59,405 bases of DNA from a virus, in the IMG/VR virus record IMGVR_UViG_3300027881_000014, positions 1-59,405 of that record; one strand, written 5' to 3'. A program made the translations under genes and the position numbers. Positions 3,232 to 55,200 of the stretch are shown piece after piece; position 1 is the first letter of the stretch, and every line of letters starts with the position of its first letter. The notes under the pieces were generated by a model. It did not search any database and was not told where the DNA came from. It saw only the letters and a list, made by a program, of their open reading frames with translations.

Positions 3232-5324
3232 TATTTATAGCCTCCTTTGGCTTTATATTGGTCATCTGCTTGTGTAGCATTAACTCCTGTTAAATCATTG
3301 TTAGTTGTTTCATCTCCTAAGAATAAAGCATTAGTATTCCCTTTCCACTTCCACCATCCAACAATAGTCCCACCTGTATAACTGCCAGTCATATTCTTGC
3401 CTTTAGTACCATTGTTATAATTAGTTAGTACATCACTATCACCAAATCCTGCATCTTCTATATTATCAAATCTTATAAATTGTAGCTCGCCTATTAAGCC
3501 ATTAAATTCACTCGCGTTGTTAAAAGCACCTATCTGTAACGGAGTTATTGAACTTCTTATTGTACCAATTTCAGTTATATCCCAACCATTCCCAGTTCTT
3601 GGGTATAAATCAAAATACATACTATCTGTTCTGTCAATAGACAGATAAAATAAATCCCATTGATTCAATACTGGGTCATTTGTACTTGATGGATTATAAG
3701 TAGTCCCATTTATAAAAGCTCGTAAATCGCCAGAGGCATAATAAAAATCCCACTGTGCGAGTTCACTAAGTGACCTATAAGAAAATAATCTATAAGTAGT
3801 TGCTACATTCGCAGGATTAAACCACCCTATTACAGCAAAATCATAAGCCTGACTCACATCCATATTGTCTATATATACTGTATCTGGTTGGTTGAGGTAC
3901 ATCTGTAAATCAGGTGTTGGGTTACCAGTAGTATCCCACTCAAAATTCCACACTAAGGTTTCAAATGCTGATGGGTCAACATCACTGAATGTTTTGCTAC
4001 TGTCTCCTACTACAAGTTCTAAGTCTGGGGGGGTTACTTGTTTGAGCGATACGTTATCAAACACTACCCCTGTAAGAGTGGCGTAGGGTCTTAGAAAAGT
4101 ACCAGCTGATTGAAATACGTGAGTATGAGTTCCATTGCTATAAAATGCAGTAGCTTGTCCAGCACTACCTTCATACCATCCCCCCTCTCCACCAACAAGA
4201 GTTAAATCAAAGGTAAGTTCATACCATAAATCTGCTGTCAGTATAGTTTGCTCAATAGTATTATTGCTATAAGCACCATCTTTTAGACTTTCAAATTCAC
4301 CACCTGTTCTATCCCAATAAGTAGTATCAGCACCTCCAACCCAAGCCCAACCTGTGTAGTCACTAAAGTCACCATTTGTAATTAACTCACTTCCCTTTAT
4401 TCCCTCACTATTAGCATCCATCTGCCAAGTATATTTCTTACCGTGTTCTAATGCTGTGAAATCAGCTGCTGGTAGTGAGGTGTAGTTGGTTGTTGCATCG
4501 CCCACTGGAGTTTTATATACAGAAACATCATCAAAATATAATATATCACCCTCTGCACCACCTTCTGTCCAAATTCCTATTAGTTTCCCCGAATTTGATT
4601 CGCAAACGTCGGTGAACGTAGCTTCAAACCACGAACCTTGGCCTTGCCCTGAATAATCTGCCGAATAACCAGTTATGCTGGTGCCATCATCATACATTAT
4701 CTGTACGGCTGTAAACGATTCTCCTGTTTCCAGATAAAGCTGTGCGGTTATCGTATAAGTTTCTCCTGGTATCATCTCTAATAGGTAGGCATCTAAAAGT
4801 CTCGCCGCAAGACGAGTTCCCACAACCGAACCAACAGTAATTTTACCAACTTTTTCTGCCCCTGGATTAGTACCATCATAAGTCACAGTACCATTTGAAC
4901 CACCACCAGTTAATACAACCCAATTACCGATATTACCACTTGAAAAATCTCTATCGTTTAGAGCAGCTATAGATTCAGTCGTATCACTAACAATCACCCC
5001 ACCATAACTACCACCATTGTTTGTAGATGAAGTATCTATAGTGTGGTTACCGTTGCCTGTCCAATTAGTTGTATCACCATCTTCAAAATCAGAATCTTTT
5101 CCGGAATCTGCAATACGTAAAGTATCATTTAAGTCTAAGTTTACTGGTGAACTGTTAGAAGCGTATTCATCTATGCCATTAAAGTCAATAGCCCATAGAT
5201 TTTTTTCTTGGCCACTATATATAGAACTACCAAATGTATGTATCCACCAATAATCACTTTCCCATGACTGTGCATTTGTAAGCCCAACTAAAAGTAGTGT
5301 GCTACATAATATTCTTTTAAACAT
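3231..5324 (-). CDS. Putative exported lectin-like protein with LamG-type domain (697 aa)
   Basis: A signal peptide (MFKRILCSTLLLVGLTNAQ) precedes a long beta-rich protein. Two segments of the form ITNGDFSDYTGWAW / DRDFSSGNIGNW (about residues 110-430) resemble carbohydrate-binding jelly rolls of the CBM4/9 kind. The C-terminal third (about residues 480-640) looks like a concanavalin/LamG fold, with AVIGWFNP, a FINGTTYN loop and a GLIGELQFIRF end strand. Such domains bind glycans, so a receptor-binding or surface-adhesion role is plausible. It sits between tail-connector genes. The presence of a signal peptide on a phage tail-module protein is unexpected. Domain names are by visual resemblance only. 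Confidence 0.6.
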   Translation of the reverse strand: MFKRILCSTLLLVGLTNAQSWESDYWWIHTFGSSIYSGQEKNLWAIDFNGIDEYASNSSPVNLDLNDTLRIADSGKDSDFEDGDTTNWTGNGNHTIDTSSTNNGGSYGGVIVSDTTESIAALNDRDFSSGNIGNWVVLTGGGSNGTVTYDGTNPGAEKVGKITVGSVVGTRLAARLLDAYLLEMIPGETYTITAQLYLETGESFTAVQIMYDDGTSITGYSADYSGQGQGSWFEATFTDVCESNSGKLIGIWTEGGAEGDILYFDDVSVYKTPVGDATTNYTSLPAADFTALEHGKKYTWQMDANSEGIKGSELITNGDFSDYTGWAWVGGADTTYWDRTGGEFESLKDGAYSNNTIEQTILTADLWYELTFDLTLVGGEGGWYEGSAGQATAFYSNGTHTHVFQSAGTFLRPYATLTGVVFDNVSLKQVTPPDLELVVGDSSKTFSDVDPSAFETLVWNFEWDTTGNPTPDLQMYLNQPDTVYIDNMDVSQAYDFAVIGWFNPANVATTYRLFSYRSLSELAQWDFYYASGDLRAFINGTTYNPSSTNDPVLNQWDLFYLSIDRTDSMYFDLYPRTGNGWDITEIGTIRSSITPLQIGAFNNASEFNGLIGELQFIRFDNIEDAGFGDSDVLTNYNNGTKGKNMTGSYTGGTIVGWWKWKGNTNALFLGDETTNNDLTGVNATQADDQYKAKGGYK

Positions 5325-5775: not shown

Positions 5776-7887
5776 TTAATCCTTGTTAATTTTCGGATGT
5801 ATCCCTCTAAAATAATTACGAGTCATTGTAAAGCTGAGGGTAGTGCTATACACGTCTTCTGCTAAGTTATTATTATCAGGAGCAGGCTCCCATGATGTTA
5901 CATAGTACATGCTCTGTTGTCTACCTTCGTCTCCTACCATTATCTTGGCTATGAAACCTAAACTATCGGCATAATCTTTCATGGTGGTTAAATCTGAAGT
6001 AACATAATAGCTATTACCTACGTTACTATCTGCTCTTGCGATGACTACATCTATTGGAAAATGTAATATAGCCAATCTATGATCAGCTTGATCTTGTGAC
6101 ATAGAAACAGTAGTAGTGCCTGTTCTATCTGTATAATTCATTATTGTGTCATATACAGCCGTATTAGTTGCTCTACCCATGACATAAAAATTTGTACCAT
6201 CTGTCAAGAATGAGTACCACCAACCATTATATAATAATGAATCATTATGAGCACTAGTTGCATCTGCTCTTGTTATTACTAAAGAATCATCTCCGGCTGA
6301 ATTAAGTATAACAATTTGATATTGTGATTGTATAGGATATTGTATCGTCTCTGTCGTAACACATTGTCGTCTATCAAATGTTAATGTATTAAATTGATTG
6401 CTATATGCTATAGTCCAACTATTGGTATCAGTTATTGCAATCTCATGCCAATATAATCTATGTGTTACATTAGACCATCCGCATGATGGATCATAATAAC
6501 TAAATGCATTTACAATACCATCAGAAGGACTTAAATCAACCGTACCAGATGCACAGTCAGATACTAAATAACTTCCTGTTACATTCATACAGAATAGACT
6601 ACCTAATTTGTTTAGTCCTTCACCTTCATTAACTAAATCTTGAGTTGATGAGGTATCTCTGCTTTCCTCTGCTTTAATCCAGAATGTAGGACCACCTGTA
6701 ATCGTAGTAGACCCAATACTCCAAACATAAAGAGTGCTATCCCAGAGAGCACTATTAACAGTGTCGACCACATTGTTAAGTTCAATAGTATGCCAAATAA
6801 GACTATCATTACTCCAAAATAAATCGAATGAAGTGACGTACTGCGAGCGGACCGAAATTGAATCGACTCCTCCGGATTCGGTAAAAGTTGTTGTTTCGGG
6901 TGAGACATCATAAACCTCTATATCAGAAAATGGATTAATAGTAAAATCATTAGCACTTGAATCAGCCCAATAAGTAGGACTATCGCCGAGCACCCTAATC
7001 TTTCCCGTTGTGATCTGATGTCGTGGGACCGTCCAAGAGACGCTAGTATCAGCCACGGCAACAGTATCAAAATCGCTCCAATCTGTCCCGCTATTTGTGC
7101 TAAATGCCAAATACGTGTTATCAATTGCTGTATCACTTGGTGCCGTCCAATGTATTGTTATTACTGAATCTTCTCTAAAAACTAAACCAGCTGCATCTGG
7201 ATAATTTAGTATGATATTATCCCACTGATTAATGGGATTATATTGGATCCACAGACTATCAGCTCCAGTAGGTGTTCCAGCTGTTGCATTAAATGCTCCA
7301 GCAAATGTTCCTACTTTCCATTGTATAGCACCATAATCCCAGTATTGTGTAGTGCCTAATTGCATCCAATCACCACTATTCCAATAATAAAATTTAATAC
7401 TATCTGTACTGCTACTATATGTTACTCTAAAATAATCTTTAGCATCTACTGCTAAACCTGTATCAAATAGGTATTTAAATTCACCATCTACAGTAGAATC
7501 TCGTACCATTAAAGAAACTTTAGTTAATTGGTATACATTACATATGCCAATGCCAAGATATTCATTAGTACTACTCCATATACCAAGCATAGGACTTAGA
7601 TTACCAAAATCAGTATCTTTCCACAGATAACCTCTTACATCAAAATCAGAATTAGTCGTTGATAATGAATCAGCATAGTATTGATAATAGCCATAATTTA
7701 CTTGTAATGTAGCACCAGTAGCCTGTAAATAACCATCTGTAATAATATCTGTAGTATCCCATTCTACTCCTGCATTTTGATGAGTCCAACCTGCGCTATA
7801 TCCAGCTGTAAATTCTTCTGTTAGAGTAATTTGAGCAAGTAATGAACTAGTGGCTAATGTTAATAATATTAATAATTTTTTTACCAT
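5776..7887 (-). CDS. Putative exported multidomain protein with LamG-like and FN3/Ig-like domains (703 aa)
   Basis: A signal peptide (MVKKLLILLTLATSSLLAQ) leads into a LamG-like domain at about residues 22-215 (EEFTAGYSAGWTHQN, then regular strands). This is followed by an FN3/Ig-like domain near 235-330 (VITIHWTAPSDTAIDNTYL, then VSWTVPRHQITTGKIRV). A long Asp/Thr/Ser-rich beta region with a few Cys fills the C-terminal half. This architecture is typical of secreted adhesins and of phage receptor-binding proteins. It overlaps the start region of the upstream gene by 7 bases. No enzyme motif was seen. Binding of host surface glycans is an inference. Confidence 0.6.
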   Translation of the reverse strand: MVKKLLILLTLATSSLLAQITLTEEFTAGYSAGWTHQNAGVEWDTTDIITDGYLQATGATLQVNYGYYQYYADSLSTTNSDFDVRGYLWKDTDFGNLSPMLGIWSSTNEYLGIGICNVYQLTKVSLMVRDSTVDGEFKYLFDTGLAVDAKDYFRVTYSSSTDSIKFYYWNSGDWMQLGTTQYWDYGAIQWKVGTFAGAFNATAGTPTGADSLWIQYNPINQWDNIILNYPDAAGLVFREDSVITIHWTAPSDTAIDNTYLAFSTNSGTDWSDFDTVAVADTSVSWTVPRHQITTGKIRVLGDSPTYWADSSANDFTINPFSDIEVYDVSPETTTFTESGGVDSISVRSQYVTSFDLFWSNDSLIWHTIELNNVVDTVNSALWDSTLYVWSIGSTTITGGPTFWIKAEESRDTSSTQDLVNEGEGLNKLGSLFCMNVTGSYLVSDCASGTVDLSPSDGIVNAFSYYDPSCGWSNVTHRLYWHEIAITDTNSWTIAYSNQFNTLTFDRRQCVTTETIQYPIQSQYQIVILNSAGDDSLVITRADATSAHNDSLLYNGWWYSFLTDGTNFYVMGRATNTAVYDTIMNYTDRTGTTTVSMSQDQADHRLAILHFPIDVVIARADSNVGNSYYVTSDLTTMKDYADSLGFIAKIMVGDEGRQQSMYYVTSWEPAPDNNNLAEDVYSTTLSFTMTRNYFRGIHPKINKD

Positions 7888-13187: not shown

Positions 13188-15188
13188 TTAACCTTGTTTG
13201 TTTTGTTGTTTACGCTTGGCTTCTGCATCTGATTTATCTTTGATCTGGGCTTTCGCCAATTCATCAGCCAATTTCAGTTTCGTCTCGAGTTCTGCAAACT
13301 TCTCACCAATCATTTGCTCTTTACTAGTCATCTCTTTGAGAATCCTATTTTCTAACGAGATGTTAATGAATTTATTTTCCATCTGTTTACTCGTTTCTAA
13401 GAGCCTATCATATGCAGCTTGCTGATCTTGAAGCTTTTGTTCAGCTCTTTTAACAGTATCAAGCTTCTGCATTAGTTCATCCCATTCCCTAACATCACTT
13501 AATTCCATTGCTTTCTGGGTTAAGATTTGTCTCTCTGAAGGATCAGGAGATGATTGTGCAATTTTTGCTAACTCTGTAGCTATAGCCAATCTTTGTGTTG
13601 GCATAGCAGTAGACGGTACACTCACTGTTAAAAACTTCATCGTTTTGATGTCGTTTGCAACGTCAAGCGCAATCTGCAACTCATTCAATTCGCCATTTTC
13701 ATCGAAGAATGAGAAACTATCAGGTGTCAAATGGGCTGCCATATACTCTATCATTACCTGTCCAAGTTCTTTCATTACTTGATTGATATGAGCTGATGAC
13801 ATTTTTACTCTCATCATAGCAGCACTTTGGTATTGCTGAAGGGAACTGAAGACTTCTACTCCGGCATCTTTAGCATTACCTTGTAGTATTGCATTGACTC
13901 CTGTAGAATACTCGATTCCTTGTTTCAGCATCTCTAATACGTTCGGATAGAAATTACTAAGTTTAGCAATACTATCACGCTCAGGCTTAAGAACTTGATT
14001 CTCATATACCTTTGGAACATATTCCTTTATAACTTTGGGGTTTGCTCCAAATTGTTCCCATTTCTCCCTATCTTCTTCTGCGATTGATCCCTTAGGAGCA
14101 TTCCAACCTGCATTATTAGATAGGATTCCATTAAGAATCATTATCTGCAAGACTTTATCAAAAGCCTGTTGCATACCCTTGGTGAAATGGATCATACCAT
14201 AACTACGATATGCTCTTCCACCCCATTCAAAAAAGGCCGTTCTTAACGGATAATCAGTTATAGGTAAGATCTCTTCCCATATAGTCCAATCACCCATTGC
14301 AATGGTCTTTTTTATGTAAATATCAGGAAGAACCTTATCAGCATTAGCTGTTATGGCCTCTCCCTCTAGCCCCAGATTTTCTTTAAAGAGCATCTGAACT
14401 AGTCCATTTTCCTTGACTAAATACATATCAGTAAAAACTTTTTCATAGTATTCACGAACGATAATTCTATCGTCAGCATTCCAATGAGAAGTAGTCACAT
14501 CTTGTTTTTCAGTAAGTTCTTGTTCAACCCATGTTTGCCCAGTAAGGCCCTTGATGTCAACCGGTGTACCATTATCATTTTTAAGTTGCGAGATGATACC
14601 ACCATAGACTTGTAGTGCCTTGGGTATAGTAAATGCTTTTTCAATAAAGAATCCCTCCATATCTTCAAGCGTTTTACTTTTAGCGTTAATATCAAGAATA
14701 ACTTCATCAAAGGGTACATGTGCAACCCGAAGGTTAAACATACCCTGTCTGTAGAAATCAACAGGTGAAACCATAATATGGCCCATTCCTGTTATTAGCA
14801 TTTCCTTGATCATTGATTCGATTTCTACAGAGGCATTAGAATTATACATAATTCCATGCTTCATTTTATCAAGTACAAATGCATGTTGCTTAGCCCTACC
14901 ATCTAAAGACAATGTCTTTACGGAGGGTTTGGTCTGGGTTAAGAGTGCTAATTTCTGGTTGGTAACGGGGTGCAGAAAGTTAATAGATACAGGAATATTT
15001 GTATTATCTGTTATCTTAGAAACTTGAGTGGAGGTATAAGTCGTACCGGTCTGATCTACATCGTTATAGTAGTATTCTTCTGACTCTTCTGCACGAGTGA
15101 GCCATTGTTTTCTACCCCAGGTTGTATCAGACTTCCAACTCACATACCTTTCACGAATGCGCTCAGGCACTCTCTGAAAGTTTATCAT
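13188..15188 (-). CDS. Portal protein
   Basis: A 666-residue protein, first gene of the head module. It opens with RVPERIRERYVSWKSDT and WLTRAEESEEYYYNDVDQTG, like portals of podoviruses of the P22 and crAss-like type. The central part has the expected wing/stem character (QKLALLTQTKPSVKTLSLDG; IKEMLITGMGHIMVSPVDF). The final 120 residues form a long charged coiled coil (EQKLQDQQAAYDRLLETSKQ to the Lys-rich end), a barrel-like extension. A consensus promoter and a terminator lie just upstream, so head gene transcription probably starts here. Identity is inferred from order, size and style. Confidence 0.75.
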   Translation of the reverse strand: MINFQRVPERIRERYVSWKSDTTWGRKQWLTRAEESEEYYYNDVDQTGTTYTSTQVSKITDNTNIPVSINFLHPVTNQKLALLTQTKPSVKTLSLDGRAKQHAFVLDKMKHGIMYNSNASVEIESMIKEMLITGMGHIMVSPVDFYRQGMFNLRVAHVPFDEVILDINAKSKTLEDMEGFFIEKAFTIPKALQVYGGIISQLKNDNGTPVDIKGLTGQTWVEQELTEKQDVTTSHWNADDRIIVREYYEKVFTDMYLVKENGLVQMLFKENLGLEGEAITANADKVLPDIYIKKTIAMGDWTIWEEILPITDYPLRTAFFEWGGRAYRSYGMIHFTKGMQQAFDKVLQIMILNGILSNNAGWNAPKGSIAEEDREKWEQFGANPKVIKEYVPKVYENQVLKPERDSIAKLSNFYPNVLEMLKQGIEYSTGVNAILQGNAKDAGVEVFSSLQQYQSAAMMRVKMSSAHINQVMKELGQVMIEYMAAHLTPDSFSFFDENGELNELQIALDVANDIKTMKFLTVSVPSTAMPTQRLAIATELAKIAQSSPDPSERQILTQKAMELSDVREWDELMQKLDTVKRAEQKLQDQQAAYDRLLETSKQMENKFINISLENRILKEMTSKEQMIGEKFAELETKLKLADELAKAQIKDKSDAEAKRKQQNKQG

Positions 15189-15231
15189 GTGGACAGTTCT
15201 TATTTATGCATAAAAAATGATCAAGATTTTG

Positions 15232-15260
15232 AATATACAAAATAAAACTGTCTTTGTCAA
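15232..15260 (-). promoter_or_regulatory. Sigma70-like promoter for the head operon
   Basis: On the minus strand TTGACA (15255-15260) is followed after exactly 17 bases by TATATT (15232-15237). The ATG of the portal gene lies about 45 bases downstream of the -10 box. The flanks CTTGACAAA and TTTGTATATT are nearly shared with the promoter at 31675-31703. Use by host RNA polymerase is the likely reading. Confidence 0.75.
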
Positions 15261-15269
15261 GCTTTCTTT

Positions 15270-15303
15270 AAAAAAAGATGCCCCAGCACTAAGCCGAGAC
15301 ATC
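15270..15303 (-). terminator. Rho-independent terminator ending the 15.3-15.9 kb transcript
   Basis: The minus strand has an 11-bp stem with G-U pairs (GATGTCTCGGC with GCTGGGGCATC), a five-base loop, then a run of seven or more T. It ends transcription coming from the replication module and RNA region 10 bases before the head promoter. Confidence 0.75.
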
Positions 15304-15304
15304 A

Positions 15305-15940
15305 CCAGTAAGGGAGATTTGAGGACAAAAATAGTAGCCCGAATGGGACTTGCACCGCCATATAGTCGACTTCAAGACAGAAATTTAGGATTAGGCCATG
15401 TCGGCTACGCCGTGATGGTTTCTCTCCATATTTCAAGAGTAATACGTTACTATATAACATTCCTTGTCGAAGGGAATCATATCGTGAGGTTGAGCAGCCT
15501 CAGGTTCTAAGGATAAGTAGTTTCAAAAGTTTCTGGTTATACTTGTTTCTGTAGGTATAGAGTTTCCCTGCGCAGGGCTCCACTATACTAAGGTAGATTG
15601 AATTTAGTTCTCTACTGAGCCATTACGCTCTGTGTCATTAAACAACATTTTCTCACTGATCACCGCCGGTTATTTCTAACCCGTGGGTTTGGAGTAAGTC
15701 CATGCATTGGATATGCCTACCTATACAATTTTACTGATGCAGTACAAATGGCCATCCAATAGCCTCCTGCATTCATTCGTAAAATTCCATACTTACAGTC
15801 TTCACTATATCCCAATATCCGATCTATTAAACTATCGGGCCAACCCAGATAACCGGCTCTTTTGAGTCCCGGCACTGGTTGATCATGACTGAAGCGGAGG
15901 ATACGTCCTCCACGTTTTGCTTCTCATCTAAGAGAAGAAA
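15305..15940 (-). ncRNA. Candidate large structured RNA A (gene-free 640 nt)
   Basis: No convincing reading frame lies here. The minus strand shows many local stems: GAAGC with GCTTC enclosing GGAGGA-CGTA-TCCTCC (15891-15923); CCGAT with ATCGG (15819-15838); a GAAA tetraloop hairpin GGTTA-GAAA-TAACC (15668-15681); and CCCTG-CG-CAGGG inside TATAG...CTATA (15556-15587). Near the 3' end, GTAGCC pairs with GGGCTAC in a tRNA-sized, tRNA-like segment (about 15333-15408), but it lacks a convincing anticodon arm. A terminator follows. The density of perfect stems suggests an ornate phage RNA like GOLLD or ROOL in spirit; I could not match a known consensus. Confidence 0.6.
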
Positions 15941-15942
15941 TA

Positions 15943-16623
15943 CTAAGTAATCCTGACTGACGCCGTTCTCTTTGTCGCCAATGCGGGATGAATTTCGGGA
16001 AGCTGAGAGACTTGCGCCTCTCGCTTTAAAATCTTGAACTCCGGAACCTTAGCTACGCTTGCTATTAGTTCTTTCCATGTTGCTTCCGTTAATTTTACCG
16101 TCACATTAATCAGGTCGTCATTAACCTGTTCTATGTCAACGATCTCTCGTCTCTCGCTTATATAAGGATGGAACGAGTATATATGACCACGAAGGGGAGA
16201 ACCCTCGCTCAAGCTATGCAATCTCTGTTTCAGCCGCGCGATGTTTCTCTGTATTCTGCCAGAGACACCAGAAATTCTCGCTGTGGCTTCCCGTTTGAGT
16301 TCTTTAATCTTGTCAAGCTCAGCCTCTAATTCGGTCATGACGTATCCGTATGCGTCGACTTTATCTTTGATAGCTAGTTCTTGATTCTGCCATATTAGAT
16401 CTTGATCGTTAGTAATTTCTCCGTCTTGATCTTCTATATCTGCTTGGAGACATAAATGATCATACAATAGCTCAGCTAACGTAATGGGATTACTCTTGCT
16501 CGTGAGTGAACCCGACTGGATTGCGCTTGACTTCAAGGGTCTGCTCGCCTCCAGGTTTGCTCCAGGCGTATTTGTCTGCGCCTTTTCCGTTTGCTTTGCC
16601 GATGAATTCGAATTGTGTTTCAT
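15943..16623 (-). CDS. Gp157-like protein (Siphovirus Gp157 family)
   Basis: From about residue 46 the sequence ITLAELLYDHLCLQADIEDQ, an IKDKVDAYGYVMTELEAELD segment and a Lys/Arg helix ending RLKQRLHSL match the layout of Gp157 family proteins. These are helical, about 160 residues, and found in phage recombination/replication modules. A C-terminal beta domain of about 70 residues follows. The first ATG (16623) makes the N-terminal 45 residues overlap the upstream gene by 134 bases in another frame. This Ser/Thr/Asn-rich lead may be spurious, since the domain starts just after the upstream stop, where no normal start codon is visible. Confidence 0.6.
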   Translation of the reverse strand: MKHNSNSSAKQTEKAQTNTPGANLEASRPLKSSAIQSGSLTSKSNPITLAELLYDHLCLQADIEDQDGEITNDQDLIWQNQELAIKDKVDAYGYVMTELEAELDKIKELKREATARISGVSGRIQRNIARLKQRLHSLSEGSPLRGHIYSFHPYISERREIVDIEQVNDDLINVTVKLTEATWKELIASVAKVPEFKILKREAQVSQLPEIHPALATKRTASVRIT

Positions 16624-24410: not shown

Positions 24411-24439
24411 ATAGTATCCTTTCTATTAGTTGATGATTA

Positions 24440-25110
24440 TTTAATGAACCTCACACTATCTAAGGTGGGATTCCTTGGTGATAATGTTTGATTGTGCCTT
24501 ACGGCATAAAAATTTCTCTCCTGAATGCCTTTCCTTCTGACTAGACATCTACCCGCATGCTTTCATACTAAGGATATATAGCAGTGTCGACCACACTCGC
24601 TTTGCCTTCCGGCTACTGGTTTACGGCCAGATTTTGGTTCGTTCGTATTACGCTAATGAATAGCACCGAACAGGCGTGAGATACACCATAAACGGAGTGT
24701 GCAAAGTAACTACGTTACCTGCACATTAAAAACATTGCACCTCACCTGAAATCAATCAAGAATATTGGTGCAAAGTTGAGGACAACAATAAGTACTCCAC
24801 AGATGACTCGAACATCCAACCTCAGCATCCGTAATGCTGCGCTCTATCCAATTGAGCTAATGGAGCATAAATCCGTTCACTTAACCGAGGAACGGCCAAT
24901 CTCGTTGTTATATAAATATGGTCATTCTCGAAATATGTATAAATACATTGGGCCTAGAATACGCACAGTAAAAGGTTTTGGACGTCTTAAACCATGTCCC
25001 TCCGTGATGCTTCGTTAGTTACCTTCTGGGCTTCCAACCTTGTAAACTGCGGTTCATTTAACACGGGACCTGAACCAAAGTCCGATATGAGTTAAACCAT
25101 TCACGGTGAA
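24440..25110 (-). ncRNA. Candidate large structured RNA C surrounding a tRNA gene
   Basis: About 670 bases with no gene other than a tRNA. The minus strand contains many perfect stems: TGTGCA...TGCACA enclosing GTAAC-GTA-GTTAC (24698-24725); GCC-GGAA-GGC (24604-24613); TGCC-GTAA-GGCA (24495-24506), both GNRA-capped; AGTGT...ACACT (24583-24597); and CCGTTC...GAACGG (24873-24895), only 7 bases from the tRNA 5' end. GGTTCA...TGAACC lies further upstream. The density of GNRA hairpins suggests a folded RNA rather than random spacer. Whether it is one transcript including the tRNA, or several RNAs, cannot be told. Confidence 0.55.
24793..24866 (-). tRNA. tRNA-Arg (ACG anticodon)
   Basis: A full cloverleaf is visible on the minus strand: acceptor GCTCCAT with GTGGAGT (two G-U pairs), D-arm GCTC...GAGC, anticodon stem CAGCA/TGCTG with loop TTACGGA, five-base variable loop, and T-arm GATG-TTCGAGT-CATC. 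The discriminator is A, and CCA is not encoded. It reads CGU and related Arg codons. Confidence 0.9.
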
Positions 25111-25113
25111 ACC

Positions 25114-29748: not shown

Positions 29749-29939
29749 GGGGCTGTAGCTCAGTCAGCGGATGATCCGTAATGATTAACCAAGATACTCG
29801 GCGACATAAGTACGTACAGTCGAGCCCTAACATTTACTCAGTCAGTACTTGATATGCATTAAGGTAAGTGATATCAACGGTGATATAGAGCGTCTGTTTT
29901 AGGAACAGAAGGTCGCGGGTTCAAATCCCGCCAGTCCCA
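29749..29939 (+). tRNA. tRNA with TAG anticodon (Leu CUA?) and a roughly 117 nt D-loop insertion
   Basis: All arms are present: acceptor GGGGCTG (29749-29755) with CAGTCCC (29932-29938), D-stem GCTC/GAGC, anticodon stem TCTGT/ACAGA with loop TTTAGGA, five-base variable loop, and a perfect T-arm GCGGG-TTCAAAT-CCCGC. The D-loop spans 29762-29887 (126 bases) instead of the usual 7-11. The insert has its own stems, including TTGATAT...ATATCAA, and a 9-base direct repeat CTCAGTCAG. A short variable loop is unusual for a Leu tRNA. It may be an interrupted gene, an intron-like insertion or a pseudo-tRNA. Confidence 0.65.
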
Positions 29940-33007: not shown

Positions 33008-33437
33008 GTTATGTAGTTCACCAAATGATTTCAAATTAAATGAAAAGGACAAACAAACAATTTTGAGCATAGTTAAATTATTCAACTTTACAATAGCCGA
33101 TGAACATCGAGGCATAGTAGGATATAGTGACTGGGCAATACCAGTTATCGTTAATCAAGAACCTGATATAAGGATAGTTGACCAAGGAGAGGGACTCACT
33201 GGTAATCAATCTGAGATATTCAGGACGGTTAAATACCAGATTTATAGCGATTTTCTATTAGCTGTATGGGATGGGCATGTAACAGATGTAATGTTAGTCT
33301 ATGCTGGGCTGATTCAAATAGGACATCAGGTAGAGGTACTACCTCGATTAAGTGATAAGAAATGTTATTCCTATGAAATGGCCAAGAAAGAGTATGATAA
33401 GAGATTACGAGGTAAGCATGATAAGAAGAAACCATGA
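32952..33437 (+). CDS. Unknown early protein (161 aa)
   Basis: The ATG is preceded by TTAGGAGAATATC, a strong ribosome site, which supports this start despite the 56-base overlap with the upstream gene. The product begins with basic helices, then has a beta-rich centre (FTIADEHRGIVGYSDWAIPV), and ends in a highly basic tail (KRLRGKHDKKKP). Function unknown. Confidence 0.45.
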   Translation: MKIITSHEIEKLVLRLYRKLCSSPNDFKLNEKDKQTILSIVKLFNFTIADEHRGIVGYSDWAIPVIVNQEPDIRIVDQGEGLTGNQSEIFRTVKYQIYSDFLLAVWDGHVTDVMLVYAGLIQIGHQVEVLPRLSDKKCYSYEMAKKEYDKRLRGKHDKKKP

Positions 33438-33903
33438 TGTCTATGTTATCTCTTATGGTATTAATGAATTTCCAGTAGGAAGAATTAAACAGGATACACT
33501 ATTTTTGGATAATCCATCCCGTCATAGACATACGATGAGTTATGGTATTGATAGAGAAGTTTTAACATCTGATGAGATGGATTTCCAATATATAATAATC
33601 CGAGAAAGAGGCAAAGATTGGACTACCTCTCGAAGCTTCTGGAAAGATTATGGTAAGATACAGGATTTAAACAATGGAAGAGTAGAATTATTCTTAGCAG
33701 ATGAATGGTATGGTGAAGAAATAACCATTCTCTACAAGAAAATTTTAGAGAACAAATGGTTACAATTTGATATATTTGACCTTGCTCATCACTCTGGTAG
33801 TTGGGATGGATTCTATAAAGTCTTACCCTATTGGGAAAAAGCTTATGAGCTCAAAGATGAGCTTAAAGAAAAATTGAACTATATCAGAAAGGTTGAATTA
33901 TGA
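33418..33903 (+). CDS. Unknown early protein (161 aa)
   Basis: I chose the ATG at 33418 because an upstream ATG would overlap the preceding gene by 86 bases; AGGTAA precedes the chosen start. The product is mixed alpha/beta with aromatic residues (RGKDWTTSRSFWKDYGKIQD; FDLAHHSGSWDGFYKVLPYW) and a Lys/Glu-rich C-terminal helix. It ends in an ATGA overlap with the next gene. No family was recognised. Confidence 0.45.
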   Translation: MIRRNHDVYVISYGINEFPVGRIKQDTLFLDNPSRHRHTMSYGIDREVLTSDEMDFQYIIIRERGKDWTTSRSFWKDYGKIQDLNNGRVELFLADEWYGEEITILYKKILENKWLQFDIFDLAHHSGSWDGFYKVLPYWEKAYELKDELKEKLNYIRKVEL

Positions 33904-43210: not shown

Positions 43211-46200
43211 TTATTTAAATATTGTTTGCCATAAATTCTTACCCTTAAATAATCTATCCAAGAAAGGAACATAGGTAAATGGATCAGCTAACCATACAAG
43301 CCTAGACTTGGTATCATTAGTACCAAAACCTGTAAACCCTTTGTTATCTGTATCTACCTTCCGGCCATGAGCAAAAGACTTAGTTCTCCTACTCTCCACC
43401 CTTACATAAGGATGAGGGAATACATCTAAGTCAACTCCCCAATATAGCTTACGCTTTTGATATTGAGCGGCTCTGTTATCGGCTGATGTCCAACCCATTA
43501 TCTTTATACCTGTAGTAAAGTCATCGACTAACCAAGGTACATCTAAAAACTCTTTACTTCTTTTATCAGGAGCAGATTCAATAGCACCTAACTGATTAGC
43601 TGCATCCCACAATTGGTTATATACTCTCCATAAGAAATCAGGAGTATCATCTACTCTGCCCTTAAGAAATGTATCATCTAATCCTTTAGTAGGAACTGTA
43701 GCTATAGACTGCCATCCTAATTTCCAAAGCATACCCATAGGTAGCATTAGATCTTGTAATAACCATATTGCATTATCTCTATCATCCTCGTCATCAAAAT
43801 CAAATCCATTTTCCATTACATCAAATAAGAAGTCTAAAGCACCATAAGCTACTTGACCCATAGGATCTTGCATGTTAGTAAAACCATAGAATATACGAGT
43901 ACCAACATTCATCATGATACCAGTAAGTAAAACTTTATTTAAGATACCATGTAATAAGAGCACCTCTTTCATTGGTCCACCTGGACCTATAGTATTACCT
44001 TTTGCATCTGCAAACTTATTAATGTGATTCATCATAGTACGGATTTGTTTGATCTTAGCTACTTCTTCTGGTCTATTATGTGCTACCCTCAACATTTGAG
44101 GTATAGCATCTTTCATAATCTTTATAGCTTTAGCCATAGAGTTATACTGATACTGAGCATACTGATGGGTAATAGATCCCATCTTAGTATTAGCCCCAAA
44201 CTGTTTGTTAGCAGTACCATAGAATGCATGCCTTAATTCAACTGAGTTAACACCAAATTGTATGGCTTCTTCAGGAGTATAGCCAGCATCGATAGCTGTA
44301 TTATATCCTATAAAGAATGCTGGTATTCTAAGCTTCTCTGCCTTAGCCTGAAAGCCTAGTCCTACATTACCTGTAAAGAACTTCTTCCATGCTACACTAC
44401 CAGCTAATTTCATAACTTGCTGAGGTGTAATGCCTTGTTCTTGAGCTACATTCATAGTAGGTTTAACACCTGATTTAGCTAACTCATTAATCTTAGCCCA
44501 TAGGTTACGCTGATCATTATCACTTAAGTTAATCTTAGTATCTTTAAGTTGATCAAAAGTTACACCCTCCCATTTAAGTTTAAGTGCATTAACTTCAACC
44601 TGAATATTCATCCTAGTCACTTCATTTGTTGCTAGGTTAAACTTATGTTCTAATTCATCTAACTTTTTGCGTGTTGTTTCATACTTAGTAGCATCTTTAT
44701 ATAAATTAAATAAATATCTAATACCTTCTTTACTACTAAATTTAACTATCATGTCTTCTGGTCTAATATTAGCAGCTTCTAATGCAATAGCTAAGATATT
44801 ATCCCCAGTAAGACCAAGTCCCGTAAGCGTCTTATATAAATGTTGATCCTCTGGTAACATCGCATCAAGATCACCATGAGACATTCTTGCCCATATATCA
44901 TTACCTAATTTCCATTGTGCTTTATTATATCTAGGTGCATCTACTAAGTTATTTATAAATGCTCCTACTTGGTTGACTACTCTAGCCTTAATGGCTGCAC
45001 CCATACCCATAAAGAGTAAGCCTGTGCTTTTTTTCATCATACCTATTGCACCACTAGTTATACCTGCTGCTCCTTGTGCGAGCCTGTAATAGGACGTAGG
45101 CATTATACTTTCATACTCAGCTCCCATAAGCTGTATGTTACGTAGCCTATCTCTAGTAGCTTCTAATCTTTCAACCACACCCGTACCCGTATAGGCCATC
45201 ATAGCATTATGAACTGGTCTACCTGCTGGATCAGATGCATATAAATCTTTACGTTTGTGTCTTCCCATCAGGGATGGGTCTTTAGCTATCCGTTTAGAGG
45301 CCTTTACGATAGCCTCAGCGGCCTTAACAGAGGTTAGCCTAGCTAAGTTAACTCCTTTAAAATCTTCCTTCGTTAGGAAGCCTCTATTCAATAAATTCTG
45401 TATAACATTACGTTCACGTTGTGTGGCTTTATTTTGCTCTCTACCTGTTGCTAAGAGACCGGTGATAGTTTGGTTATAGCGTGCAATATCTTGCCTAGCT
45501 TCCCAACCCACCTTAGCAGCATCAACTACAAAGTGTACTTCATCTTTAGTTATCTTCTTAACTATACCTGAATGTTGTGCTGTACCCCATGAAGTTAAAG
45601 TATTATTAGGTTGTAGTATAGAGGTCTCTTTAGTAAAATGAACCTGTTGTCCTGGTTTAACATCTCCCCATGACATAACCTTAGATTTTAACTCTTTATC
45701 ACCTATTTGATTAGCATACCAATTACGTGTAAGTTCAATAACATTATTACGTTCACCTGCTAGTCTAGCATTACCCTGATACAATAACCAATCAGCTAAT
45801 AGACCATCTTTTGTTAATCCATCTATTAATTTCGTATTATAATTTAGATGTATATTAGGATCAGTCTTAGTATAATGAGTAGCATCAGGCATCTTACGTG
45901 GAATAAAGTTAGGTATAATGCTACCTGAATTCCAACCTGCTGATACTATATCCCATTGTTGCAATGCCCCTGTATGAGCAAGCTTTCTAATTTCATCTCT
46001 ATCCTTTGTAAGATCAAGTCTTGCTAAAGGGTTACCAGTATTATATTTTTGTGCAAATGCTATTTGTCTTTCAAGATCTTTAACAGCATGTCTTAGATAT
46101 CCCTTCATCCACATAGCTTTATATCTAGCTATAGGGAACTGATGAGGCATATAATTACCCTTAAATACTTCAACAGCCTGAAGCATTGCTCTATACTTGC

Positions 46201-49200
46201 GTATCATAGCATCTACTCTCAATGCTGAGTCTAAGTGTTGTGCGCCTTCCAGTTCTTCTCTTGTTCTTTCTAAGTACTCTAGTGCCTGCCTTAATATCAT
46301 GGGCACTTGTACGTCATACATTTCTCGTATGTCTATAGCGCCGATGAGTCCGAGCTTTTGTACTGGTGATAGCTTGCTAAAATGGTTATCTATTAGGTCA
46401 CTTACATTATCATATACATGTTCTTGACCCAGCGTTACTACATACTGCGTAACACCTTCTGCGTTTGGACGTACTGTAACTCTTTGTTTACTTGATAAGT
46501 CTTCAGCTAATGTAAATATTTGTTTACGTCTAGCTTCTAATAACATATCATCCTTATCAGTTACTTGATTTACTAAGTTAGATATTAAACGCGTACGAGC
46601 AGTATGTTCAATGTGTGTCTTCTCTGATGCTACTGAAGCATATTCAGATGCCCACTTTCTTCTGAATTGATTATGCGATAGTATCTGAGTAATAGTATCA
46701 TATCTTTTAACCTGATTCGTAAGAGTAACTTGATGCGTAGACAATGCCCTATGCATAGCCTGTGATTTATTCTTAGTTATAGAACTCTCGCCCATGGTAA
46801 TGAATGAACGTATAGCATGAGTAAGTCTTGATATTCTTACATCTTCTCCTGTCTGATCAGTTACGCCTTGTTCATTCCAAACAAATGATATAACATCATC
46901 TTTAGGAGAGAACACTCTAGTTAATTTTTCTGATAGTTCAGTAACTAAGTCATAACCTATAATATTAGAACCTATCCTACGCATAAACGTAAGATTCTTA
47001 TTACGTGCACCTTCTCTTTTCCTTACAGCAGTAAAAAGATAATACATCTCTATGATAGTACCTTTTAGTAACTTATTACTAGGATCTTCTCCTATATTTT
47101 GCCTTAAGAATGTTTCAATAATATTACTACCTTCATATTTATCTACAGCAATAGCAATATGAGTTGTATCTACATCTTTATATTTCTTTTGAAACTCTGC
47201 ATCACTCAATTGGGTAACGTCTTTTACTAAGTCTTTATAAAATACACCATTTTCAGATAGAGCCTTAATAGTAAGCGTATTTTGCAATAACTTCTTCAAT
47301 TGCTCTCTGCCATGCTGCCAATCCTTACCTATCATAGACTTATAAAACTTTCTAAAGCTAGGATCTTTAGCTACCTTAGCATGTTCATTAACATAGTCCA
47401 TAAAGAAATGCTTAAAAGTATGTTCAGGACTTTCTACATGAGCATCTTCATATATCATATCTACGTTAGCATCAACACCATCTTGTAAGACTTGATTAGT
47501 CTTTTGTTGATCTTGAGGGCTACGTTGTGCATTCACATGAGAGTATAGTTGCATCCACAAGTTCATTAGTTGAGGCTCAAACTGAGCCATAAGACTTAAT
47601 GCTATATGGTTGCTCTGATATCTAAATGGTTTTGCTGGATCATATGCTGACTGATTCACTATAAAGCCAGTAGCCTTACGTTCTAACATTCCTTGATCAC
47701 TTGTCTGGGCTAAGAGCCCTAACCAGAATGCTACTTGATCATCAGTAGTAAATTTCCTTGTACCATATAGGTTCTCAGCTAGATACGCTTCAAGTATTCT
47801 CTGTCTCGTATCCATATTTAAATTTCTTGGGAGTTTAAGAAGACTAGACATCTGCACTCTATTAAAAGTACCTTCAGACTTGTTTTCTACGCCTTCCCAT
47901 AGGCCATTTTCTTCGGTCAATAGTCTACGAAGAAGATCAGCTCCTTCACTAGTGCTTTTATTAATCTCTGTATGGGTATACTTTTTCTTATTAAGCAAGA
48001 ATACAAGTTTACCAGCACCATCAGACTTGACTCCTATTCTCTTACCACGAAAGACAAGTGCTATAGGGGCAACATTATCTTGTAAGAATAAGAAGTTTTG
48101 ATTTAATATATCTTTCCACAAGATTGGATATGTTTTAGCATGAGCCTCTCTCGTAATTCTTAATTGTTCTGATACACCTTTTGCATCTTCTTGTTCAAAA
48201 GTTTCATCAAAAGCATGTAATATGCTATTAGCTTCTGCTCTAACACTTCTTAATTGATTATGCCAATAAGCTTTAGTCTTGTCATTACCTTCTTGTAATC
48301 TACCTTCAAAAAAATCTGCTGATCTAGGCATTAAGGATAATGAAATAGCATCGCTATCAACATGTATTTGTCTACCATCTCTCTGGAACGGAGTAAAAGC
48401 ATTACCTACTCTAGCATCTACTTCTTTAAAATCAATAATAGCATCTTTAAGATCTTGTTGTGATGCAGCCGATAGCTTAGCTCTAAGCTTCTCAAAGTGT
48501 GCCGTATTCTTTAACATAGCTCTTACATCCTCTACAGGATTTTTGCTACTAGTACGCATTAAACTTAATATTCTTTGAGCTGGTTTATAAGCTATGCGTT
48601 TACCAATTTTAAAAACATTTGCACCTTGACTAGGTTTATGGGAAGTAACATCATCCCACATAGACTTCACAGCTGGGTAGTATGGTAGGGCTCCTGTAGA
48701 GGCTAATACTTGGTTGATCAAATGATCCTTGTAAGTATTCCCAGGCATATCACGCAGCATCTCCGCTGCATTGACATTGCGAATCATGTTGAATAATGGG
48801 TAAGCATAGACGTCATCAACTTCCATCTTGCTTACGAAGCTTTGTAAGAACGCATATCTTTGCTTAAGTACTAAGAGACCAGCTTTATAATCTTTGGTAT
48901 TCTTAAAGTACTTACGTTCTAATTGTGTCTTCCCATCATTAATATATTGATCAACAAGAGATAAAAGTCCTTGCTTATCATTACGAGCAAGTACATCTAA
49001 CTTATGTTGTGCCTTACGTAATTGCTGTAAGGTTTCATAATAATCTAATTTCTCAAAGGTCTCTGGGTTACGTTGCCGTGCTAAGTTAAATGCCTCAGCA
49101 AATAACAAGTTCTGGAATCCTTTTAAAGTAGTATACATATTATCTGTATTAGTAAACTTACCTTGAGTTTTATCCATAGCTTGTATTGCTACTGAATCAT

Positions 49201-52200
49201 TCAGTCCCCAGAAATGTGCACCCATCTTTCTTTTATATATTGCTGATTTAGGATTAGAATTATAAGCTAATCTAGTAGTCTTATTGGGGAAATCTACCTC
49301 AGCATTTGTCATATTTAAGTGATGGACATGTAGTCTTAGCCATTTGCTATTACGTACATTAAAGTTTTCTTTAAATTCTACCCATCTACCCCCTGGTTTT
49401 ACCCTGGTTATCAGCTTACCTGTCTTAGTAATGTAAGGTATAACCACATCCTTAGCTCTCATATTCATAGTAGAAAGAGCTGTGTGTAATATTCTTTCAT
49501 TTATAATAGGAGCTGGATCATGTAAATAGTTAGAATCAAGTGCAATAAATGAATCTCCCATAATGGAAAACTTATTCCTTTGACCTTCTACAGCACCATT
49601 CATTAAGATACTATATGTCTGCCTCATCGTTTCGCTTTGGAAGACGCTATCTTCCGTAACAGGTATCTCTTCACCTGCAGCATCTTTAACTACCGTGCCA
49701 TGCTCTGCGAATAATTTCTTTGTTTCAGAAGCAACTCCCTTTGCATATACACTAGGTAGTTTGCTAGCTATATCAGTAAGAGCATTAAAATTATCTGGTG
49801 TCCAAAATCTAGGATCATAAGGGATGATAGATATATTATCTATATCAAAATCTTTTCCAACAAGGGTCTGTATCCATTCTGAATTGAATGTAGCCTTGCC
49901 ATTATCAGATACTTTTCTACCACCTGCTTTGCTCTCCTTTGACTTAACTATACCAGCTACCCTTACACCAATAACACCTAATGGTGAATCAGTAGGAGTA
50001 ACTACTGCCATTACCTTGTCACCTGGCTTAATGCCGTGACGTTCGGCAATGTCTTCTGTAATTAAAGTCCAACCTTTGTTAAGTCTACCAGTTTTAAAGT
50101 TAATAATACCATTAGTCTGACGTATTAACTCATGAGTAACTGGATCTACTTTATGTGTACCCCATACAACTTCATCTCTCCATGTAGTTACATCTTTATT
50201 GGCCCAGTTAATAGCTGAATGAGGTGCAATATCAGATATCTCTTTACGTTCTGACTCTATGTCCGCAAGAGCTAATACCTTTTCTTCGCCCTGCAATTGT
50301 GTATGAGCTCGTTGTTCTCTCCTTTGCAATTCTATTAAATGTTTAGCATCTTTTCTGCTCTGTGTAGTATGCGCAGCAGCAGCTACTTTCTTAGGTACAG
50401 GCATATTAATCAATATATTACCTAAGTTCCAACTACCTAGAATAGGATCTATATCTTTTTGCCAGTTAGCATAACCTATATTAGGATCAAGTACAGCTCT
50501 ATTACCTGCTGTCTTACCACCTAGCATTTGGCTAAGCTTATGTTGCATCCTATTACGTAATACTTCTGCTGTATGAGCATGTTGAAAGAAACCTGCATAT
50601 CTACGTAAGATAGTGGCCTCTGTTTCATTAGCCTTAGGCTCAATAACATCAATCCATATATTAGATACTGACTGCTCTTGAGGTGACTTAGGATTATATA
50701 CTACATCTTTAAGTAAAGTATACATAGCTGCAGGAGTAGTATTATCTGCAAACCATTGTTTAGTTTCTGATGCCATAGCATTAGAGAAGTCTGTCATAAT
50801 CTTACTAAGCTTAGGTCCACCTATATCCTTAATAAATTGATTATACAGCTCACTAAATGCTGTACCACCCATAAGCTGTTTAACACTACCACCCATGGGA
50901 TCTTTAAATTCTGACTCACTAATACGTGAGAATTGACTCATCTTTAATGGTATGATAGGATCAGCAGCTACAAAGTCTGGGTTACTCATAAGTTCAAGAG
51001 CACCCACAACCCTAACCTTAGGACCTTCTTTCATAGCTTCATCTGCTGTCATAACTGCTACATTATTTCTGATCATCATTTGACCTAATGCAGAGTCCTT
51101 ATGTACACCATGCATAGCATGCTTAATGAATAAAGGATCTTGACCAGCACGTGAACTATATAAGTTCTTGATAGTACCATCTTTAAGGACAGCATGAGCT
51201 AGGTTATAAGCCTTATCAAAATGTCCTATAATATAGAAAGAAGCACCATCTATAGTAGATGTATTAAGTTCATTCTTAAATGCTTCGCTTAATTTTATCT
51301 CTCTAGTTACACCATCTGGTGTCTTAAATGTAATAAGGTTATTATCAAAGCTATTTACAACCATAGCGTTAACAGCTATATCACCCTCAACAAATTCAAT
51401 ACCATTAACAGCAGCATCACCAAATGCTTGCTCAATATCTGCTTCATCTATAACAATACCAGTATCTTGAGCCATCCATTTAGTACCACGCTTTTGTATT
51501 TTATTCCAATCTTTAGCAGCTTGACTTTCATTAGAAAACCATATTTGTTCTAATAAAGCTCTTGAAGTAGCTGACATTTGCTGTGGTTCACCATAAGGAT
51601 TCTTCTCATCAGAAGTACCAAAATCTTCTTGGAACTCTTGAAAGGCTTCTTTTTCATAAACCTTTTGAAATTCTTGTAGTGCTGCTTTAATCTGTACTCT
51701 ATACTCACTATTAAATGTTAAGATTGGTACAGTGTTGGCACCAGCAAATGAACCTAGATACAACATACCTTCTTTAGATGCTCTAGTTATAGGGGCTGAC
51801 CATAAAACTTCTGATATATAGCCCGTAACAGGCCCAGCATGCTTAGGATCAACATTAAAGAATGTAGAATTTAACCTTTCTAAACTACTCCGATTGGTAA
51901 CTTTATCATCTTTCCAAGTTTCAAAACCTTCTATATAAGCAATCTTTAATGAGCCTTTAGGCATCTTTAATTGCTCTTCTAAGAGAGGAAGATAACCTTC
52001 TAATGCTGTCTTACGTCTAAATGTATTTCTCTTCTTACCATTACCATCTCGGTATACGCCCTCAACTTTGCGCAGCTCCAAACGATAATCCGTTTCCCCA
52101 CTATTAGGATCACGCTGATGGACACCCATAACAACATAACCAACTTTAGCCTCCTTCATCATCACATTAAGAAATGCTCTTTTTAAGAATACCTTTCTAA

Positions 52201-55200
52201 ACTGTGCGACAGTTTTATGTATACCACCTTTATAGTTAAAATACAAATGCTCTATCTTCTTATTAATGATATTACGATGAGCTTTATCTAACAGATCCAT
52301 ATCAGTTTGAAAATCGTCAAAACCTGTCTCGCCAGCATAGCGACCACGCATGATCTTTCTATACTCACCCTCAGGCATGCCATTTAATTCAGAAGCTATA
52401 GCAATAAAATTCTCTATGTTGCCATTCTCTGCCTTATTTTCATTTTCATTTGATATATCATCAGGATCTTGCATTTTATCTAATAGTTCATCCTGATCAC
52501 TATCTTCTGCATATTCTGTAGTCTCATAGCCAGAGGTTACATTCTTTTGTATCCGTAAGTTTTCTTTGGCTATCCTAGCACTCCACTCTTTATCTCTACC
52601 CTTATTAAAATCACTAATCTTTCTATTATGATCCTCTAAGATACTCTGTAGTTGTAGAGTAGCAGACTTCTTAATACCTAAGTTCTCAAGTGATTGTCTA
52701 ATAGCTCTCCAGATAGCTCTCCAACCTGTTATTGGCTTATGAATACCGCCTACATTAACCCTATCAGTAATAAACTTGATAGCCTGCGTATCTGATAAAA
52801 CTGCTGTAATAAATTCTTCTTCGCTAAGGAATGATTTCTTGATTAACTTAATGTTTTGGCTAATCCATTGCTGAAGTTCGGCTTTATCTCCTAGATAGCG
52901 TTGTGTAAATAATGTACCCTTGCCCTTAGAGTTGATAACACTACGTACAGTTTGCATGATAGATCTAATCTGACGATTAAATTCTTTAGCTGATACTGTA
53001 TCTGAATTCATATATCTACCAAGATAACTATGAAGCATCTCATGTACGGTAGTATCCCATACTGAGTGATTGTTCCATAGAGTAGCATTAGGATTAATGA
53101 ATATATTACCTGAAGCTTTTTCAGTAGCACCTGGATGTTCAGCTTCCATAGGCTTAATGCCTATCTTAACATCACCTACTTGTTCTAATAGATTATCTAC
53201 TACTTCTTGTGTAAGGGGATTTTGAAAACCTCTGCTAGTAAGATACTCTATCATATCTTTAACAGTATTCCCCTTAAAACCTGCAGTTACTTCATCATAT
53301 GTAGGCATGCCAAAGGTAGCATCTGGTATATTCGTAGTCTCAAAAGTAAAACCACCCGCAAGGTTAGCGTCTGCCACACCCTCTGTATGTGATTCTCCTC
53401 CTAAACCTGTAATTGCATCTGTTTCTGTTCTAGTATGGAAGTTACCACGATTATCTATAAATCCATCTTCTACCCTACCATCATCTAGGGTTATATCACT
53501 TGGAAAACCACCTGCATCAGTAATATCTTGTAACAGCTGTACATGTATTTGACCTGGCTTACCTTTCCAAACCTTACCATCAATCCGCTCGCCTACGGCT
53601 ACCATTTTCAGATTACTTCTCATACTCTGAACTGTGGTTTGTGCTAGCTTCATTGCTAAGCTTTTGGATTCCATTTGAAATTCGCCACCAGACATTGGAT
53701 CAAAGAATGATACGGCTAAGTTATCTCCAAATTGTGTAACACCTTTAAATTCAATACCTAATAATCCAGACATTGCCTGGGCCTTGTCAACTACACTTGC
53801 AGCTGTCGGTGCATCCTGTAACTCAAAGTCTTCATCTGTCACCCAACCAAAGTCATCAGCATCATCCGATTTGGTCTTGAAATTGCCATTCTCATCGAAG
53901 CCTTGGAATTGGCTACCATCAACGTCTTCCATTACTTCATTACCTAGCACAGTGCCTACCTGAGCGATGGCTAGACCTATATTTTCCTCAACGCCAAGTT
54001 GATAAGTCTTCTTGGCTTGAGCTTGTATCTTGTTTAATGATTGAGACTGCCCCTCTTTAGTAAACTTAGTTTTAGGAATCTCAATTTCTAAATTTGAATT
54101 TTGTAAATCTTGAGCTTGTGAGATAATCTTTTTAATTTCAGGATTACCCTGATGTCTATGAAATAAGTATCCATAGCTAGTCTCATCAAAGTCTAAAGCA
54201 ACAGCGAGGTTTAAGTCTTTCTTTAGTTGCGCATTATCACCAGCAATAGCTGCTATCTTTTGATCTAAACCAGTTGTAGCTATATACTTATCAATACCAT
54301 GTATAGCTCCTTCCATGATAGCATGTGATGTTTCTTGATCAGCCTTAAATAAATAACTGTCCACCTCATATGATATATGATTCTTGTCTTTAGTCTTATT
54401 ATCTTTAATGCTTTCCTTAGTATCTCTCTGAGATAAAGCAGACAATAACATTTGAGTTTCTCTCTTACCATGTTCAAAGACAAAGTCTAAAACATTAGCA
54501 CGAGGCAAACTATTAACAGACTCAAGAGTACCTGCTATAATATAGCTTTCTCTCTTATCTACTTCTTGTTTAGCTACTTCATCTGCTGAAGTTTCTACTA
54601 ATGGATTGCTTTTACCAGTTCCCTGGTCTAAAATTACTTTAGCTGTTTCGCCTTCTTGACTAACGTCTACGTCAGCTTTCTTTTCTAAACTCTCTTCAAC
54701 TTTTTCTTTGATTGGGTCAAGTTTTTCTCCACCCAAGAGTTGTTCTAACTCACGTGCAGCTGCTTTTCCATATTGCTTTTCATAATCTTCAAGAGGCTTC
54801 TTTGTCCAGATATTACCTACTTGAAATGTACTTCCTAATACGGTACCAACTGCTATTTCTACTACTAAGTTTCGATAGGCTTCTCTTGCTTGATCATCAT
54901 CACCGAAAGCTATCCATATAGCAGATCCATGACCACCTTCAACTATATCATTAAAAGCATCAGTAACCTGCTCTGTAGCAGTTTCTATGATAGCACCTGA
55001 GAATAAAGTTCTACCAGTATTCTTTAGTAATTCTTTAGCTATAAGTTTTCTATCTGCTTGTAATGATGCCAATCCTCTTTTAAGAGCTTCTATATTCTTG
55101 GGAATCTTAGAGTTCTTAATCATAGATTTCAATTGAGTAGATGTTAACCTAAGTGATTTCTTAGTTCCATCTTTACCTAATACGGTTACAGTTTTGCCAA

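Follow-up and report, generated by a model that had tools for sequence, protein, structure and literature searches.

The gene-free gap upstream of the portal gene

The 59,405-base virus record IMGVR_UViG_3300027881_000014, called the window here and analysed over its full length, carries among its genes a P22-like portal, an SU10-like capsid, a DnaB helicase and a terminase, as well as a very large phage protein of 4349 aa encoded by a single ORF (43211-56260, minus strand). A candidate RNA ligase gene (33352-33903, plus strand) was dropped, its match to Pfam RNA_ligase lying below the cut-off and lacking PHROG or PDB support. The region of interest lies between a Gam-like ORF (15943-16623), which forms its upstream flank, and the portal ORF (13188-15188), which forms its downstream flank, both on the minus strand. 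The initial annotation had called this stretch gene-free, and so it is: within the gap (15189-15942) the longest ORF encodes 97 aa on the opposite strand (15217-15510) and has no counterpart in the gaps of relatives. A coding function was rejected, as the window and its close relatives share no common ORF here; the sister contigs L004, L005, L008, L010 and L013 carry a different ORF, in the interval from the RNA described below to the portal gene.

An intrinsic terminator had also been noted, and it is found on the minus strand at 15303-15277 (11 pairs followed by T7), just past the lower edge claimed for the RNA (15305). The neighbourhood is rich in such signals, with five terminator-like sites in 15000-16200 versus 1.0 (sd 1.1) in shuffles. 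A terminator stands at the equivalent place in L001 and L006; none was called there in L002. Just after it lies a portal promoter, TTGACA-17-TATATT (15232-15260, minus strand), present at the equivalent place in L001, L006 and L002. This sigma-70-like promoter and the P22-like and SU10-like head genes point to a bacterial phage. At the other end, the leader running from the stop codon of the Gam-like gene to tRNA position 1 (15842-15942, minus strand) contains no called promoter, and RNAalifold found no internal covarying helix in it in the alignment of the window's copy (W) with L006, L001 and L002. Since no promoter was called in the leader, the RNA is probably co-transcribed with the Gam operon.

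A tRNA-Glu core with two large insertions

It is well supported that the minus strand of the gap encodes an RNA with a tRNA-Glu(CUC) core carrying two large folded domains. Delimited by a split-tRNA scan and by covariation, the molecule is 507 nt long, counted from position 1 through 73 (15335-15841, minus strand); an ordinary tRNA measures about 75 nt and usually has a D-loop of about 8 nt. From the 5′-end, the strand first provides the acceptor 5′ strand GGCCCGA, U8 and A9, and the D-stem 5′ strand GUUU (15829-15841). There follows an enlarged D-loop of 321 nt (15508-15828), which starts with A14..A18 G19, ends with A21 and contains a covarying multi-helix domain. The GAAA tetraloop reported earlier is indeed located within this insertion (15676-15673), on a 5-bp stem that is paired in the constrained fold. 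The next 30 positions (15478-15507) hold the D-stem 3′ strand GAAC, the anticodon arm UGAGG-CUGCUCAA-CCUCA, whose 8-nt loop contains CUC, a 4-nt variable loop (CGAU) and T-stem positions 49-51 (AUG). The T-stem is then interrupted between positions 51 and 52 by 121 nt (15357-15477), beginning with a hairpin P1 directly 3′ of position 51 (15477-15459) and closed by an arm P2 directly 5′ of position 52 (15458-15449 with 15366-15357). The molecule ends with T-stem 52-53, the T-loop UGCAAGU, T-stem 61-65, the acceptor 3′ strand UCGGGCU and A73 (15335-15356), right after which come the bases CUA.

When the insertions are left out, all 21 cloverleaf pairs are present (7, 4, 5 and 5 in the acceptor, D, anticodon and T stems). 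The initial annotation had described the 3′ part as tRNA-like, giving no strand; this is true and incomplete, since the three separate blocks 15841-15829, 15507-15478 and 15356-15335 jointly form one tRNA. The tRNA plan underlies the entire molecule and is not confined to its 3′ part. As for the abundance of stems remarked upon at the same time, it exceeds chance on the minus strand, where 15270-15942 folds at -197.8 kcal/mol (z -4.1, 0/20 shuffles), while the plus strand (z -1.4) is not clearly beyond shuffles. Left unconstrained, W folds with just 7 of the 21 tRNA pairs, and imposing the tRNA pairs raises the energy by 9.3 kcal/mol (-125.6 vs -134.9 kcal/mol).

Conservation and covariation in relatives

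Two IMG/VR scans with the window's portal yielded 12 portal relatives, nine of which have a tRNA at the equivalent place upstream of the portal gene. The D-loop is enlarged in every one of them (39-325 nt), and five carry a T-stem insertion as well (102-255 nt). As L004 and L005 carry an identical tRNA, there are nine distinct loci, the window included. Given as D-loop and T-insertion lengths, these are W (321 and 121 nt), L006 (292 and 120), L001 (325 and 104), L002 (268 and 102), L010 (98 and 255), L003 (81 and 246), and, with a T-insertion of zero, L004 (62), L008 (39) and L013 (41). The D-loop expands immediately after G19, and A21 is retained. On a portal tree of 12 rows, the T-insertion label, borne by ten rows, needs one change, with support 97/97. 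The remaining relatives are L009, a long branch with 43% portal identity in which the RNA was not found, L012, in which no tRNA was found in an upstream sequence of only 643 bases, and L007, which has zero sequence upstream of the portal gene. No further copy of the Glu RNA turned up in extra viral contigs gathered via the capsid, helicase, terminase, Gam and exonuclease proteins. Isolate phages gave no portal relative and no useful DNA relative (one 27-nt match), and prokaryote genomes gave no portal relative.

The tRNA pieces, lying far apart, were first recognised by reading the upstream gaps of relatives. A scan for split tRNAs (acceptor, D-stem, anticodon arm, and T-stem split at 51/52) found W, L001, L002 and L006 at the homologous place; its remaining two matches are L004 and L005, with a T insertion of zero, and 20 shuffled windows (1.19 Mb) gave none. 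A scan with an intact T-arm added L008 and L013, against one match in 10 shuffled windows. The pieces of L003 and L010, which fall outside the scan because of a T-stem mismatch and a 25-nt anticodon loop, were assigned by eye.

Covariation in relatives, a check proposed with the initial annotation, is strong in the tRNA stems and in both insertions. Across the nine loci, 98.9% of 189 pair cells in the tRNA stems are paired and 14 of the 21 pairs show double-sided changes; none of 500 shuffles reaches any of these measures, and slid partners pair in at most 57% of cells. Because the pieces were chosen partly by complementarity, ARAGORN, RNAalifold and the tertiary positions matter here as other tests. 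Once the insertions are cut out and the cores joined, ARAGORN recognises five of the nine as tRNA-Glu(ctc), and it makes no call in 4500 shuffled cores or in 80,000 double excisions placed at random; the four it misses are exactly those with an 8-nt anticodon loop, W included, the loop length of L010 reflecting hand trimming. RNAalifold, given a plain MAFFT alignment of W, L006, L001 and L002 with no tRNA information supplied, recovers the acceptor, anticodon and T stems together with the insertion helices, the D-stem being missing. This four-locus alignment contains 74 pairs, 47 of them with double-sided changes by the tool's count and 48 by our own, and its energy is far from that of column shuffles (z -12.8, 0/100).

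The insertions are themselves conserved folds, judged on these four sequences, the sole ones close enough to align. Taken alone, the D-domain has a column-shuffle z of -11.1 and the T-domain one of -8.8 (each 0/200). The 54 insertion pairs are paired in 93.3% of 210 cells versus 35-47% when slid, a control that is partly circular because the structure was chosen on the same alignment. Beyond the four sequences, the P1/P2 arrangement occurs in all six T-insertions, with P1 directly after position 51 and P2 closing at most 3 bases from position 52; shuffled insertions show it in 30-114 of 2000. A search for additional helices or contacts between the D-domain and the T-domain, of at least 4 pairs in all four sequences and with more than one double-sided change, gave none beyond those known.

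Positions outside the stems obey the tertiary rules of tRNAs, U8, A14, G19-C56 and A21 being kept in all nine loci. Also kept in all nine are U11-A24, U13-G22, A46, the absence of position 47, and CUC. Positions 18 and 55 change jointly, being A/G in W, L003 and L010 and G/U in the other six; on the tree W does not group with L003 and L010, from which we infer at least two joint switches. The elbow of W thus has A18/G55 in place of G18-U55 and retains G19-C56. At the Levitt pair 15-48 the RNA departs from an ideal tRNA: four copies have G-C there and W has A-U, but the pair is nonstandard in L006, L001, L002 and L010, four of the six copies with a T-insertion. The anticodon loop is 7 nt long in five of nine loci; that of W (CUGCUCAA) has a G at the U33 place before CUC, and that of L010 contains a further 16-nt hairpin. 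CUC in 9/9, A37 in 8/9 (one copy has U37) and U before CUC in 6/9 would also fit a tRNA that decodes or that is restored by excision.

PMC9976931 gives the E. coli tRNA-Glu identity set as U11-A24, U13-G22:A46, no 47, and U34 U35 C36 A37, and by that account W has the full set except C34 for U34. The D-helix elements, A46, U35, C36 and the lack of position 47 are common to all nine copies, in which position 34 is C. With these positions retained, recognition of the RNA by GluRS is plausible. Decoding by the window RNA appears less plausible, given its 8-nt anticodon loop, the G before CUC and the T-stem insertion in the EF-Tu binding region.

The window contains a second expanded tRNA (29749-29939, plus strand), with a D-loop of 126 nt, an intact T-arm, the anticodon UAG and the anticodon loop TTTAGGA; Rfam matches only its 3′ part (29879-29939), and no long-D-loop counterpart was found in the relatives scanned. 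In two relatives, L017 (20198-20320, minus strand) and L015 (3333-3455, minus strand; the same as L018), a tRNA with a normal D-loop has an expanded anticodon arm made of a 9-bp stem and a loop of about 47 nt, and the one in L017 is placed relative to the terminase gene much as the 29749 tRNA is in the window. Considering these cases, tRNA expansion may be a habit of the lineage. Other tRNA-related sequences were seen along the way. In the window, a gene-free stretch of 703 bases (24411-25113, minus strand) surrounds an ordinary tRNA-Arg(ACG) at 24792-24866 and folds not clearly better than shuffles (z -1.15); a 32-base piece of this tRNA-Arg, searched in prokaryote genomes, revealed no host. 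Right after the Glu RNA, L003 has an Rfam tRNA match of 45 bits (5856-5931, plus strand) that ARAGORN does not call, and L010, past position 5294, has a short tRNA-like sequence with an ACGCCCA ... TGGGCGT acceptor, seen by eye. A tRNA-Ala-like fragment in L030 (5568-5623) is perhaps a prophage attachment site. Finally, a conserved 33-base motif, GATAAGRGRAGAMGAGCCCYCGATTGTATCAAW, lies in L002 (1941-1973, plus strand), L010/L023 and L012/L024, the only three contigs in IMG/VR with exact matches; it precedes a hairpin whose loop has the potential to base-pair with GAGC in the motif, and it is placed upstream of the tRNA in L010, downstream of it in L002 and before the portal gene in L012.

A proposed path from tRNA to large structured RNA

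The initial annotation had suggested a large structured phage RNA outside the known families, to be compared with GOLLD, ROOL and others. Rfam 15 bears this out: at gathering scores nothing matches in the region, with GOLLD, ROOL, RF00005 tRNA and tmRNA included, and up to E 10 each of two runs gave four chance-level matches, none of them GOLLD or ROOL. ARAGORN, run on the window as it stands, calls the Glu RNA neither as tRNA nor as tmRNA, and neither ARAGORN nor Rfam calls a tmRNA in L001-L010. In the open-licence literature (titles and abstract openings) no description of a tRNA bearing insertions of this kind was found, so that in Rfam and in this literature we found no precedent for this kind of RNA.

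What does it resemble? Like the Glu RNA, tmRNA has a tRNA fold interrupted by a long insertion, but it carries a tag ORF and is without an anticodon arm, whereas the Glu RNA keeps that arm and has its insertions in the D-loop and the T-stem. Archaeal tRNAs can carry introns at several unusual positions, and here too there are insertions at several places of a tRNA; these, however, are long conserved domains, in what is apparently a bacterial phage. With tRNA-Glu itself the RNA shares the cloverleaf, the anticodon CUC and the GluRS identity positions, but it differs in its 507 nt, its T-stem broken by 121 nt, its 8-nt anticodon loop and its A18/G55. GOLLD, too, is a phage RNA that is large, structured and associated with tRNAs, which sometimes lie in its linker (PMC12286853); its tRNA is a separate linker unit, whereas here the tRNA is the body that bears the other domains. 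ROOL, likewise large, structured and often near tRNA islands, has no tRNA core reported in the part of PMC12286853 available to us, and has no Rfam match here.

Could the insertions be removed, leaving an ordinary tRNA-Glu(CUC)? They would then be intron-like or cut-and-religated elements of a new type, which we consider unlikely. All four stems, the tertiary core and the GluRS identity are kept in nine distinct loci, the tRNA of sister phages is close to normal apart from a D-loop of 39-62 nt, the 16-nt hairpin of L010 should need removal for decoding, and GAG makes up 202 of the 647 Glu codons in 12 large ORFs, all of which suits excision. However, no group I or group II intron model of Rfam matches the insertions up to E 10, those smallest D-loops are far below the sizes of known self-splicing introns, no RNA-ligase gene was found in the window, and even after removal of the insertions the anticodon loop of W, L006 and L004 has 8 nt and lacks U before CUC. 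Translation with the insertions kept, by a tRNA-Glu whose D and T arms are oversized and whose 8-nt loop would make it a frameshifting tRNA, strikes us as distinctly improbable. The conserved CUC, A37 and identity set speak for it, as do L013 and L008, which differ from normal mainly by D-loops of about 40 nt; but the T-stem insertion at 51/52 falls in the EF-Tu contact region of tRNA, the Levitt pair is nonstandard in most T-insertion copies, and the anticodon loop of L010 reaches 25 nt. A decaying, functionless tRNA gene filled with random insertions is most improbable. Such a gene would account for the widely varying lengths (D-loop 39-325 nt, T-insertion 0-255 nt), but decay is strongly contradicted by covariation in the tRNA and both insertions, by the 18/55 pairing that is kept and by the equivalent place in 9 of 12 portal relatives.

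With modest confidence we therefore lean towards a structured phage RNA of about 500-670 nt that evolved from tRNA-Glu(CUC), no longer decodes and has a structural or decoy role. With the same restraint, we would describe tRNA-Glu as a chassis bearing two elbow domains (more than 400 nt in total), its identity set and elbow contacts kept and decoding given up, and in our reading the RNA represents a new class, in which a large structured phage RNA has grown out of a tRNA. Two folded domains would have grown near the tRNA elbow, one in the D-loop just after G19, the other in the T-stem between 51 and 52. The RNA would be transcribed with the Gam operon up to the terminator ahead of the late portal promoter, host RNase P and 3′-end enzymes would trim it as a tRNA, and GluRS might still recognise it via the retained identity set. 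It would probably no longer decode, because of the T-stem insertion at the EF-Tu site, the elbow domains, which would clash with the ribosome, and the 8-nt loop of the window copy with its G at the U33 place. Instead, it may have a structural role as a stable RNA, or it may be a decoy that engages tRNA-handling factors, for instance GluRS or tRNA-cutting defence enzymes. Some phage tRNAs are known to work against tRNA-cutting defences (PMC11555353), which by analogy makes the decoy role a fair guess.

tRNA finders overlook tRNAs with large insertions: in the loci on which ARAGORN was run, every expanded tRNA escaped it. The functions of large phage RNAs such as GOLLD and ROOL are puzzling, as is their link with tRNAs. 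If the proposed origin is true, the tRNA scaffold, together with the sisters whose insertions are smaller, would make visible a path from tRNA to large RNA, and the tRNA core would give a direct handle on charging, processing and structure.
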